NCBI GenBank assembly: GCA_944325815.1
Contig: CALVBV010000011.1
Coordinates: 1 to 35,108 of the forward strand
Length of the DNA stretch: 35,108 nt
Origin: Candidatus Gastranaerophilales bacterium
GTDB lineage: Bacteria > Cyanobacteriota > Vampirovibrionia > Gastranaerophilales > Gastranaerophilaceae
Direction of reading: 5' to 3'
A model generated the notes under the pieces. It was not told the DNA's origin and ran no database searches. It saw nothing but the letters and a program-made list of their open reading frames with translations. The first letter of the stretch is position 1. Every line of letters begins with the position of its first letter. Of the stretch, positions 27,264 to 32,410 are shown in pieces. Position numbers and translations under genes: made by a program.

Positions 27264-28268
27264 TTAGAACATTCTTACAATTTTTCTTACTTCTTTTAAA
27301 ACTTCCTGAGCCCTTACTCTTGCTTTTTCAGAGCCGTCTCGTAAGATTTTTTCCACTACTTCGGGATTCTCTTCATAGTACTTTCTTTTTTCTCTAATTT
27401 GGGCAAATTTTTCATTAATTCTTGCACCGAGCTGGCGTTTGCAGTCAGCACATCCTCTTGCACCCTTTTCGCACTCGCATCTTACGGTGTTGACTTCATT
27501 TTCTTCCCCGAAAATCTGCCAGTATTTGAATGCAACTTCACACTCATCCGGATGCCCTGGATCATCTTTTCTCATCCTGCTTCTGTCAGTTATGGCAGAC
27601 ATAACTTTTTTAGCCGTGACCTCCGGAGTATCTGAGATTTTGATATCATTATTAAATGATTTGCCCATTTTATTTCCGTCCAGTCCGCAGATAAGCGAGC
27701 AATTGTTTAACAGCGGCTGGGTTTCTTTAAAGAAATCAGTATTATATAGATTATTGAATCTTCTTGCAATGTCTCTTGTGAGTTCAACGTGTGCAACCTG
27801 ATCAATCCCTACAGGTACAAAATCCGCATTAAAACTCAAAATATCCGCTGTCATAAGAACCGGATATCCCATTAAGCCGTAATTAATCTGGGATGCCATA
27901 CCTTCTTTTGACCTTAAAATTTTTGCCATGTCTTTAAGATTCGGATCTCTTTCCACCCAGTTCTGAGGTGTTATCATACTCAAATAAATATGCAGTTCTG
28001 CGGTCTCAGGAATTAGAGACTGGACATAAATCGTTGCTTTGTCAGGATTAATTCCGCTTGCAAGCCAATCCGTTGCAACATCAATAATATCCTGTTTAAG
28101 ATTTTCCGTCTTATCATATTTTGTTGTAAGCGCATGCCAGTCTGCAATAAAGAAATAGCAGTTATACTCATCCTGCAGTTTAACCATGTTCTCAATTACG
28201 CCCAAATAGTGTCCTAAATGAAGTTTTCCGGTCGGACGCATGCCGGTAAAAACTATTTTATCCTGCAT
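27264..28268 (-). CDS. trpS: Tryptophanyl-tRNA synthetase with a four-cysteine iron-sulfur-type motif
   Basis: Charges tRNA-Trp. 334 residues. The class I motifs are HLGH (17-20) and KMGKS (200-204). The C-terminal domain has cysteines at 243, 266, 273 and 276, spaced C-x22-C-x6-C-x2-C (plus C264). This is the spacing I recall for the [4Fe-4S] site of Thermotoga maritima TrpRS; most bacterial TrpRS lack it. It starts 4 bases after the GH13 gene and is the last gene of an HTH / GH13 / trpS operon. Confidence 0.96.
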   Translation of the reverse strand: MQDKIVFTGMRPTGKLHLGHYLGVIENMVKLQDEYNCYFFIADWHALTTKYDKTENLKQDIIDVATDWLASGINPDKATIYVQSLIPETAELHIYLSMITPQNWVERDPNLKDMAKILRSKEGMASQINYGLMGYPVLMTADILSFNADFVPVGIDQVAHVELTRDIARRFNNLYNTDFFKETQPLLNNCSLICGLDGNKMGKSFNNDIKISDTPEVTAKKVMSAITDRSRMRKDDPGHPDECEVAFKYWQIFGEENEVNTVRCECEKGARGCADCKRQLGARINEKFAQIREKRKYYEENPEVVEKILRDGSEKARVRAQEVLKEVRKIVRMF

Positions 28269-28272
28269 ATTA

Positions 28273-29799
28273 TCAATTTCCTTTCGTTGCTATTCTTATA
28301 ACTTTAATTTCCCCTGCGCTAAGGTCGGTATAAATTTTATTATGTCCGGGTTTTATTGTGCCTTCGCAGTTAATAAATTCAAAATCTGTTTTCTTCTTAA
28401 TCCCCGGCGCATTTATTGTAACTTTATTCTGCGGATTTTCAAAATCAAGATTTCCGATAACAATTACAGTGTCATTTTTCAGGGTTCTTGCATAAGCAAA
28501 AACTTTATTGTTATCTGTTTTGAAATCTATGAAACTTCCTTTTGATATTAAATCTTCATTATTTTTTCTAAACTCTGAAGCTTTTTTAAAGTTATTTAGG
28601 ACATTTTGATTATTCCCCCCCGGACGCCTTGAGAAATTAAAAATATCAAGCTTTCCTCTGTGTACAAAATAATAAATATCATCTGTCTGTGTTTTATCAG
28701 CTCTTGTATTAGCCCAGGAATAAAGATATTGGTCTCCCGTAAAAAATCCGTCAATACAATACGGGTTAAAAGGCAGCGTTGCATTCAGCCAGGAAATCAT
28801 GTTGGAAAAATTTTCGCCGTGAAGAACCACAGGACTGACCTCGTCGTGAGTGGAAAAACTTAGAATAACGCTTTTGGGCTGGTTGTATGAGTTTAATAAT
28901 TTTATATTGAATTTTATATGTTCAATAAAATCCGCTGCATTCCATTCCTTAAGATTAAAAAAGCTTCCGTAATAACCGTCAAAACCTGCTTCTAACAGTT
29001 TGTTGTACGGGGTAAATTGAGCATACTTGCTTGGCGGCTCTCTCCAGGAATCTGATGCTTCTGCAAGAAACATAAATTCAGAATCTTTTGCTCTTGTATA
29101 CTTAATAATTTCTTCCCAAAAAGCATAGGGTTTAATTGTTGCAACATCGGCTCTTAATCCGTCTGCGCCTATAAGCAGAATCATATCAATAAATTTTTTA
29201 TGCGCATCAAGAACATCCTGATTCAGCTTTAAATTATCTCCCGTATTCAAAAGTCTGACATCAGTCCAGTCAGTCGGCACAATAGAGCATTGCTTGGAAT
29301 CTTTGAGGAACAATTCCGGATGGGTAAGAAACAAGTCATAAGAGCCGCAGCTCGGCAAATCAATGATTACTCTTATTCCTCTTTTGTGGCACTCATCCAC
29401 AAATTTTTTTGCCTGCTCTATAGCGGAAAGTTCAGAATTATTATCAACCAGCTGCGGATTTATACTCCAAAAATCCGAAATGGCATAAACTGAACCTGCT
29501 GTTCCGAGTGCCTTAAGCCTTCCCACAGGCGTAATCGGAAGAACATGAAGAGTATTGATATTAAGCTCTTTTAGCTCATCAAGCCTTTCAATTGCGTTTA
29601 AAAAATTCCCGCTCTCTTCATTTTCATCAATAAGCTCATTGCCGTTTAAGTCTTTTGCGTTAAAAGTTCTCAAATTAATACAGCAAATATTAGATTTATT
29701 CCTAAGAAACAGAGTTCTAAGGTTATTTTCTTCTCCGTAAGAACTTATGGCTGTAAACGCCAAAAGTATAAAAGCAGTCAATAAAAATCTTTTTTGCAT
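28273..29799 (-). CDS. Secreted GH13 alpha-amylase-family protein, divergent
   Basis: 508 residues with a signal peptide (FILLAFTAISSYG-EEN). The TIM-barrel residues are DGLRADVATI (nucleophile aspartate, about 220), FLAEASDSW (acid/base glutamate, about 245) and FSTHDEV (transition-state aspartate). Conserved region I, usually DxVxNH, reads VIIDLPSCGSY, so the Asn-His pair is missing. The C-terminal beta domain (about 405-505) is present. The catalytic triad looks intact, but specificity may differ from normal amylases. Second gene of the operon between the HTH gene and trpS; an extracellular or periplasmic glycan enzyme linked to a tRNA synthetase gene is an odd pairing. Confidence 0.85.
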   Translation of the reverse strand: MQKRFLLTAFILLAFTAISSYGEENNLRTLFLRNKSNICCINLRTFNAKDLNGNELIDENEESGNFLNAIERLDELKELNINTLHVLPITPVGRLKALGTAGSVYAISDFWSINPQLVDNNSELSAIEQAKKFVDECHKRGIRVIIDLPSCGSYDLFLTHPELFLKDSKQCSIVPTDWTDVRLLNTGDNLKLNQDVLDAHKKFIDMILLIGADGLRADVATIKPYAFWEEIIKYTRAKDSEFMFLAEASDSWREPPSKYAQFTPYNKLLEAGFDGYYGSFFNLKEWNAADFIEHIKFNIKLLNSYNQPKSVILSFSTHDEVSPVVLHGENFSNMISWLNATLPFNPYCIDGFFTGDQYLYSWANTRADKTQTDDIYYFVHRGKLDIFNFSRRPGGNNQNVLNNFKKASEFRKNNEDLISKGSFIDFKTDNNKVFAYARTLKNDTVIVIGNLDFENPQNKVTINAPGIKKKTDFEFINCEGTIKPGHNKIYTDLSAGEIKVIRIATKGN

Positions 29800-30723: not shown

Positions 30724-31215
30724 ATGGGAATTTATGCGGATAAAGCTTGTAAATATTTTCTGGAAGGCTATAATTGTGCCCAATCAGTATTTTTAGCCTT
30801 TTCTGACGTTGTCGGCTTAGATAAGGATACCTGCCTTAAACTTTCTTCATCTTTCGGAGGAGGAATGGGAAGGCTAAGAGAAGTCTGCGGCGCAGTCTCT
30901 TCTTTATTCGCGATTGCCGGCATGCTCAAAGGATACACCTCTCCGGTAGATTTTGAAGGGAAATCCGAACATTATAAACTTATACAAGAATTGGCCGAAG
31001 ATTTTAAAGCGGAGTTTGGAACTATAATCTGCAGGGAACTTTTAGGTTTGCCGCCCGGCGCAGATTCTCCTGTTCCGGAAAAAAGGACTGACTCATATTA
31101 TATTAAAAGACCCTGTGAAAATTTTATCAAAAAAGCCGCAGAAATCGCTGAGTCTAAACTTTTAAACCAGAGGACTGAAAACCTTGTAGTACAAGTAAAC
31201 GGCAACAAGAACTAA
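30724..31215 (+). CDS. C_GCAxxG_C_C family protein
   Basis: 163 residues with the family's spaced cysteines: GYNCAQSVFLAF (C near 18), a cysteine near 39, the REVCGAVSSLFAIAG motif (C near 59), and later cysteines in IICREL and RPCENF. Members are probably redox or metal-binding proteins, often beside electron-transfer genes; biochemical function is not established to my knowledge. A TAAAAT ends 6 bases before the ATG and there is no Shine-Dalgarno, so the mRNA may be leaderless. Its last 54 bases overlap the convergent ccdA-like gene. Confidence 0.85.
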   Translation: MGIYADKACKYFLEGYNCAQSVFLAFSDVVGLDKDTCLKLSSSFGGGMGRLREVCGAVSSLFAIAGMLKGYTSPVDFEGKSEHYKLIQELAEDFKAEFGTIICRELLGLPPGADSPVPEKRTDSYYIKRPCENFIKKAAEIAESKLLNQRTENLVVQVNGNKN

Positions 31216-31872
31216 AAGTATTCCGCTGAACTTCATTAAGGCATCCGTAAACCTTGCCATTTTTTTCAGGTTTTTAACCCCTGATGTAAATATCCCTGCA
31301 ATAATTAAAATTAACCCTTGCCCTAGAGCAAATAAAAACAACATAAAAACTGCCGCTGCAAGATTTTTTCCTATTGCAGCAAAAGCCATTATCCCCGCAA
31401 GTATCGGAGTAGAACAAGGAGTTCCCGCAAGCGCGAATGTTATACCCAGCAAAAACGGATAGATAAACAATGAACTTGTCGTATTTGCAGGCATTGATTT
31501 TATAATAACAGGCAGGTCAAAATCTATTATATCCAAGATTTTCAACCCCATTACCATAAGTAAAGACGCCATTAATAATGTAAAATAATTTCCGAAGGCA
31601 GAAGCAAAAACGCTTCCGGTAACAGCGCAAATAATGCCTATAATTGTAAAAACTACCGCAGTACCGAGTATAAAAAAGCACAGCTGCAGAAATGTTCTGA
31701 ATGGTGTTTCTTTGGAATATCCGCCTACATACCCTATAATAAGAGGAAGCATGGCCAGCGAACAAGGGGATATTGAAGCTATAACACCTCCGGCGAAGGA
31801 GGCGCCGAACATTAACAGCCATACCGGCGAACCGTTATTTGCAGAAGAAAATATTTGTACCAGATTATCCAT
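31162..31872 (-). CDS. CcdA/DsbD-type thiol-disulfide transmembrane transporter
   Basis: 236 residues, six hydrophobic helices. The two conserved cysteine motifs of CcdA are present: ASISPCSLAMLPLI in helix 1 (C near 37) and LAGTPCSTPILAGI in helix 4 (C near 153). It carries electrons from cytoplasmic thioredoxin to periplasmic thiol proteins. Its start overlaps the end of the thioredoxin-like gene by 8 bases, so the two work as a reducing relay. The 3' end overlaps the C_GCAxxG_C_C gene antisense. Confidence 0.88.
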   Translation of the reverse strand: MDNLVQIFSSANNGSPVWLLMFGASFAGGVIASISPCSLAMLPLIIGYVGGYSKETPFRTFLQLCFFILGTAVVFTIIGIICAVTGSVFASAFGNYFTLLMASLLMVMGLKILDIIDFDLPVIIKSMPANTTSSLFIYPFLLGITFALAGTPCSTPILAGIMAFAAIGKNLAAAVFMLFLFALGQGLILIIAGIFTSGVKNLKKMARFTDALMKFSGILLVLVAVYLYYKVFSPLV

Positions 31873-32260
31873 TGTTTACAAGCTCTTTTAAGTAGTTGTC
31901 CAGTATTTTAGGCTGTATTGCGCCTTCAATACGGCGTTTTACATTCCCTTGCGAATCTTTAAATACGGTCGTAGGAACAAGTTTTACTTCATATTTTTTG
32001 ATAAGCTCTTTTGTTTCGGAATTTTTTTGAGTTACATCTACCTTTTTAAGGTCAATATCTTTACTGTAATTCGGAAAAACTTCGTCAAAAACTTTTTCCA
32101 ATTCCTGGCATTCATAGCACATAGGAGACGAGAATTTAATAATTTCTGCGCCTGATGATGCAACGGACGGCAGAGTCGTCAGCTTATCTCTGGTTAATCC
32201 GAAGTATACCGCAAGAGGAACCAGAAAAATTAATAAGATTAAAATAAGATTTTTTTTCAT
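31865..32260 (-). CDS. Membrane-anchored thioredoxin-like protein
   Basis: 131 residues from ATG 32260, which has AAGGAAGGAGAG; the frame is open to 32380 but that part has no start signal. N-terminal hydrophobic anchor or signal (NLILILLIFLVPLAVYFGL). Thioredoxin fold with the active site CYEC (48-51) after SSPM, the VDVT strand, and the cis-proline segment LVPTTVF. The CxxC dipeptide YE is unusual. Partner of the downstream CcdA-like protein. Confidence 0.87.
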   Translation of the reverse strand: MKKNLILILLIFLVPLAVYFGLTRDKLTTLPSVASSGAEIIKFSSPMCYECQELEKVFDEVFPNYSKDIDLKKVDVTQKNSETKELIKKYEVKLVPTTVFKDSQGNVKRRIEGAIQPKILDNYLKELVNNG

Positions 32261-32410
32261 AATCTCTCCTTCCTTAAGTTTACCACATAATATATCATCG
32301 TTTTTAAAAAAGATATTACCCGGTCCGTTAATATCCGCAAAACTTGCAAAGAGGCTTTGTTTGTAGTAGCGTGAAAACAAGGCAGTATAAATTGAAAGGA
32401 TTTAATAAAA

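Follow-up and report, generated by a model that had tools for sequence, protein, structure and literature searches.

The trpS gene and its product

The window analysed here, a stretch of 35,108 nucleotides from a gut bacterium of the Gastranaerophilales (Melainabacteria), carries a gene for a tryptophanyl-tRNA synthetase (TrpRS; P0001) together with the features listed in Table 1. The limits of the gene had been given correctly in an earlier sequence-only reading, which left the strand unstated; it is the minus strand. Genes for a GNAT protein and a decarboxylase come after trpS. Elsewhere in the window, at 30724-32380, genes for a C_GCAxxG_C_C redox protein, a DsbD-like membrane protein and a thioredoxin-like protein adjoin one another.

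Table 1 Features of the trpS locus and related loci (positions refer to the window)
Feature	Position	Strand	Remark
trpS, tryptophanyl-tRNA synthetase, four-cysteine (predicted [4Fe-4S]) type, 334 aa (P0001)	27264..28268	-	TIGR00233; best PDB match 2g36
HIGH-type signature, HLGH, residues 17-20	28209..28220	-	Sequence
KMSKS-type signature, here KMGKS, residues 200-204	27657..27671	-	Sequence
Arg231 codon, aligned with cluster-contacting Arg224 of 2g36	27576..27578	-	Arg in 123/126, Lys in 3/126 relatives
Cys243 codon, predicted cluster ligand (Cys236 of 2g36)	27540..27542	-	Cys in 126/126 relatives
Cys266 codon, predicted cluster ligand (Cys259 of 2g36)	27471..27473	-	Cys in 126/126 relatives
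Cys273 codon, predicted cluster ligand (Cys266 of 2g36)	27450..27452	-	Cys in 126/126 relatives
Cys276 codon, predicted cluster ligand (Cys269 of 2g36)	27441..27443	-	Cys in 123/126, Asp in 3/126 relatives
Amylase-like gene, upstream of trpS, 4 bases between	28273..29799	-	Conserved trpS neighbour in part of genus; synteny marker
Cys-Cys-Cys-Asp loci	L195, L196, L201, L202, L211, L214		Five f10 genomes and one f16 genome

The earlier identification of the product as a TrpRS is borne out by its match to the trpS model TIGR00233, which scores 290.7 bits where the cut-off is 176.75 and covers model positions 2-326 of 328. P0001 displays both class I synthetase signatures, the second of which differs by one residue from the KMSKS consensus. 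It is the only TIGR00233 match over cut-off in its genome (1.84 Mb, 99.8% complete), the second hit, on contig C90, being a tyrosyl-tRNA synthetase (TyrRS) according to TIGR00234 (366.5 bits). The same genome includes a tRNA-Trp(CCA) gene; this gene and the finding of a single TrpRS serve as supporting evidence only for the probable charging of tRNA-Trp by P0001. The nearest named records are Candidatus Gastranaerophilales bins, the top one of which is 96% identical. Conservation was assessed among 126 distinct relatives that share at least 45% identity and span more than 310 residues of the query. Residue 202, the variant position of KMGKS, is occupied by Gly in 114 of these relatives and by Ser in the other 12; Gly marks the order Gastranaerophilales and one genome of family f8 (G056), and KMSKS is found in three fully read f9 genomes and in two genomes of the host family (L328 and L336; genus g22).

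The best PDB match by sequence is the Thermotoga maritima TrpRS TM0492 (2g36; E 1.4e-78), and the same entry ranks first when the AlphaFold2 model of P0001 is compared by Foldseek (6.7e-25) and by VIA-align (Z 35.2 with an rmsd of 2.1 across 313 residues, the next two entries scoring 34.0 and 33.6). That other TrpRS should score so close behind 2g36 is as expected of one fold, which the model suggests is shared with enzymes such as the Deinococcus radiodurans TrpRS II (PDB 1yi8 and 2a4m; VIA Z 33.6 for 1yi8). The mean pLDDT of the model is 79.8; it falls below 50 at residues 126-133 and 190-206, and block means of 63-73 are found just before Cys243.

Predicted cluster cysteines and their conservation

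The cysteines of P0001 lie at residues 37, 190, 194, 243, 264, 266, 273 and 276, and four of them follow the spacing C243-x22-C266-x6-C273-x2-C276 exactly as the sequence-only reading had described, an arrangement that arose in five of 200,000 permutations of the shuffled protein. At the ligand columns of 2g36 they fit C-x(21-24)-C-x6-C-x2-C, the motif range given for TmTrpRS-type [4Fe-4S] enzymes in a passage of the T. maritima study (Han et al. 2010, PMC2954223). According to the same source, Cys236, 259, 266 and 269 of the T. maritima enzyme are the [4Fe-4S] ligands and Arg224 contacts the cluster in the crystal; the cluster was seen in the electron density, with iron detected by X-ray fluorescence, and was further documented by mass spectrometry. 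The earlier proposal that the four cysteines of P0001 correspond to these ligands was followed up by aligning the two proteins: 139 of 321 aligned positions are identical (43%), all four cysteines fall on ligand columns and Arg231 falls on the contact column. The proposed location of this T. maritima-type ligand set in the tRNA anticodon-binding domain is supported as well.

Both proteins are class Ic TrpRS, and P0001 is an addition to the [4Fe-4S] type already known from T. maritima. They differ in their modest overall identity, in the KMGKS of P0001 where T. maritima has KMSKS, in Cys190, 194 and 264, which are Val, Pro and Glu in 2g36, and in the host, here a gut bacterium. Cys264, near the ligands, is Cys in 72 of the 126 relatives. 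Cys190 and Cys194 belong to a CSLIC stretch directly before KMGKS, and each is Cys in 101 of the 126. A [4Fe-4S] cluster at four cysteines has likewise been predicted for TrpRS-A2 in a passage of PMC5370408. A search of full texts, few of them from subscription journals, returned no title or abstract reporting an Fe-S TrpRS in Melainabacteria.

Four-cysteine and cluster-free enzymes in Cyanobacteriota

The survey was made up of genomes of Cyanobacteriota, and within the host lineage the four-cysteine form is the usual one, contrary to the earlier remark that it is uncommon. All four cysteines are present at 80 of 80 relatives' loci from a scan of genome contigs, at 30 of 30 loci from a separate genome search, and in each of the 69 host-family genomes read for this type, a set that overlaps the 80 loci. 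Outside the family they were read in genomes of f2, f3, f4, f6, f7, f8 and f9, the exceptions there being G049 (f6), which is cluster-free, and G037 (f5), which has an odd match only. On the tree the Fe-S TrpRS clade tracks taxonomy, with 2g36 outside it, which makes the four-cysteine enzyme look ancestral in this lineage. The TrpRS of oxygenic cyanobacteria, members of the same TIGR00233 family, are about 34-37% identical to P0001, have KMSKS, and possess C273 and C276 in none of the 30 read, these being the best-scoring of the draw rather than a random sample.

The draw from the family comprised 383 genomes, 367 of which have a match to P0001. The E-value is 5.1e-70 or lower in 342 of these and between 1.7e-54 and 9.9e-66 in another 23; two were set aside. 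The 342 were assigned to the four-cysteine type by E-value, the cysteines themselves having been read in the 69 genomes mentioned above; the two genomes assigned to neither class are G438 and G541, the latter with a fragment. Two matching stretches occur in each of ten genomes, and three of these genomes were resolved as fragments (G014 and G016) or as two four-cysteine copies (G409). In G409, a bin with 4% contamination, the two genes (L355 and L356) encode proteins 82% and 74% identical to P0001 and may represent two organisms in one bin. The remaining 16 genomes have no TrpRS match to P0001. Ten of these and five other genomes were searched with PF00579; 12 of the 15 hold only a TyrRS (by TIGR00234) and G524 yielded nothing, and additional odd PF00579 matches in G037 and G438 were set aside as possible contaminants. 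We work on the assumption that TrpRS was simply not assembled in the genomes with no match. Two such bins with a TyrRS only, G259 and G162, have stated completeness values of 99% and 98%.

With the addition of G002 and G049 the weaker-matching group comprises 25 genomes, all of which encode an enzyme 66-100% identical to P0002, the cluster-free TrpRS of a congener, and none of which has Cys at any of the four ligand columns. These enzymes form one clade beside the Deinococcus TrpRS II, which also lacks the cluster cysteines of P0001 in the aligned region and whose relatives replace the four-cysteine enzyme in some Gastranaerophilales. The clade spans eight genera of the family (g1, g18, g21, g23, g35, g37, g131 and g140) and one f6 genome; within it g23 and g37 are not monophyletic, several support values being low, and this topology suggests that the cluster-free TrpRS has been transferred between genera. 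No four-cysteine copy was found in any of the 23 cluster-free family genomes.

Within the genus of P0001 the replacement can be followed at the locus itself. Four-cysteine congeners (for example L007, L013, L016 and L046) display the order HTH, amylase-like, trpS, YkuD-type protein and der, which is incomplete at some four-cysteine loci. In all seven cluster-free congeners this region is assembled but lacks trpS, the order being HTH, amylase-like, YkuD-type protein and der, and no trpS remnant was found in it. In a tree of the amylase-like gene the seven group as a single clade (support 0.976), and one event therefore explains the cluster-free state in the genus. In five cluster-free congeners the cluster-free trpS has a conserved neighbour in common, either a 344-aa protein (L173/L234, L174/L237, L208/L233 and L236) or a 194-aa one (L235 and L238). 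Neither neighbour gave a Pfam match at these loci (L173, L174, L208 and L234-L238).

All 73 bases of the tRNA-Trp gene are the same in each of the 12 four-cysteine family genomes examined, several of which were typed by E-value only, and in 11 of 12 cluster-free ones, the twelfth being 99% identical. A change of tRNA was consequently rejected, at gene level, as the cause of the enzyme swap, and the constancy of the gene argues only against the need for a changed tRNA sequence. Escape from a TrpRS inhibitor such as indolmycin or chuangxinmycin might have driven the swap. The existence of congeners with a cluster-free enzyme and the same tRNA gene suggests that the cluster is dispensable. Such congeners, with and without the cluster and alike in tRNA-Trp gene and remaining neighbourhood, provide a matched comparison of what the loss of the cluster costs or gains.

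Oxygen and the probable role of the predicted cluster

The sequence-only reading had raised the possibility that the cluster makes charging sensitive to oxygen. The evidence does not support this. Forty-six genomes were screened for COX1 (PF00115) and cytochrome bd (PF01654), and indirect evidence against such sensitivity comes from five non-photosynthetic Cyanobacteriota that pair a four-cysteine TrpRS with a terminal oxidase over the NCBIfam cut-off: CtaD in G077 and G097 (f19), G082 (f20) and G066 (f12), and CcoN in G103 (f23). In G097 the cbb3 oxidase genes ccoN, ccoO and ccoG, which all exceed their cut-offs, share a 573-kb contig with trpS (C14:566601-567569) at a distance of about 9 kb, and misbinning is therefore improbable; the genome holds a second, cluster-free TrpRS on contig C35. 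Four-cysteine enzymes further coincide with untyped COX1 matches in G100 (f20), with CcoN-like proteins below cut-off only in G091 (f23), G056 (f8) and G152, G289 and G293 (f9), and with a weak cytochrome bd match and no COX1 match in G133 (f9). We infer from the oxidase genes that these organisms respire with oxygen. Within the Gastranaerophilales neither PF00115 nor PF01654 was found in any of the 23 genomes examined, and oxygen-linked loss was on this count rejected as the cause of the replacements in the order.

Why an Fe-S cluster should sit beside the anticodon in an enzyme of translation is a question that has stood since 2010. In our best explanation, which we regard as most probably correct, P0001 is the sole TrpRS found in its host and charges normally, its anticodon-binding domain being built around a structural [4Fe-4S] cluster and not around a redox or oxygen switch. 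The enzyme would activate Trp with ATP and charge tRNA-Trp(CCA) as other bacterial TrpRS do; Cys243, 266, 273 and 276 would hold the cluster as the core of the domain, and, as in the T. maritima enzyme, the cluster would hold in place the loop and helix opposite the anticodon. Cluster binding, nuclearity and structural role are ascribed to P0001 by analogy with one solved relative, and the site could hold Zn instead. Four-cysteine sites in general can bind either Zn or an Fe-S cluster. That the cysteines of P0001 hold Zn2+ and no Fe-S cluster is nonetheless highly improbable given that they and the contacting Arg occupy precisely the columns of a relative whose cluster and iron were documented directly (PMC2954223). 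The proposal that the cluster-free genomes are artefacts of draft bins, with a contaminant cluster-free gene present and the four-cysteine gene unassembled, draws on the facts that all are draft bins, that several are less than 90% complete and that some family genomes have no TrpRS match at all. We consider it very unlikely, since the slot is assembled without trpS in every one of the seven congeners, these form one well-supported clade and in five cases share conserved neighbours of the new gene, and the four-cysteine copy is missing from all 23 genomes.

A redox or oxygen switch, whereby Trp charging, and with it translation, would slow down once the cluster is oxidized or lost, accords with the lack of the oxidases sought in the host lineage and with the oxygenic cyanobacteria, whose lack of C273 and C276 would be expected, on a larger scale, from a link with oxygen. 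Passages in two published surveys are likewise favourable: one lists TrpRS among its Fe-S families specific to anaerobes and notes that aerobes have homologues devoid of the ligand pattern (PMC5279795), and the other links the form to anaerobes and to thermophiles or other extremophiles (PMC2954223). The five genomes with a terminal oxidase, one of them with both genes on a single contig, qualify these ties and the view of the Fe-S TrpRS as an anaerobe form. Furthermore, all 12 genomes tested in which a cluster-free enzyme has replaced it are devoid of both oxidases, and the T. maritima enzyme kept its cluster through a purification for which neither a term search nor the relevant passages of PMC2954223 mention anaerobic handling; we therefore judge a switch to be quite improbable. 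Han et al. suggested that a modified anticodon loop of tRNA-Trp is recognized through the cluster, and in the docking model of the T. maritima enzyme described in their paper the cluster lies near C34 (PMC2954223). This too appears unlikely, as the tRNA-Trp gene is unchanged beside the cluster-free enzyme, with the proviso that identity of a gene is not identity of modification.

To a broader reading that builds on the structural cluster we give even credence: the Fe-S TrpRS would be an ancestral enzyme open to replacement, with no part in oxygen sensing and no tie to a special tRNA, that was displaced in several Gastranaerophilales genera by a cluster-free TrpRS II serving the same tRNA-Trp gene, was kept in oxygen-respiring Cyanobacteriota, and in f10 and one f16 genome acquired a 3Cys/1Asp cluster. 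Cys-Cys-Cys-Asp occurs outside the order, in all five f10 genomes drawn (G057, G063, G072, G085 and G106) and in G069 (f16). That each of the six retains three cysteines suggests that Asp serves as the fourth ligand of a cluster, which, if true, would give an aminoacyl-tRNA synthetase with 3Cys/1Asp coordination. COX1 matches occur in three of these genomes (G057, G072 and G106), those of G057 and G072 being nearest to CtaD and below its cut-off. In f12, G060, G074 and G088 combine COX1 matches with a cluster-free TrpRS, whereas G066 of the same family has all four cysteines.
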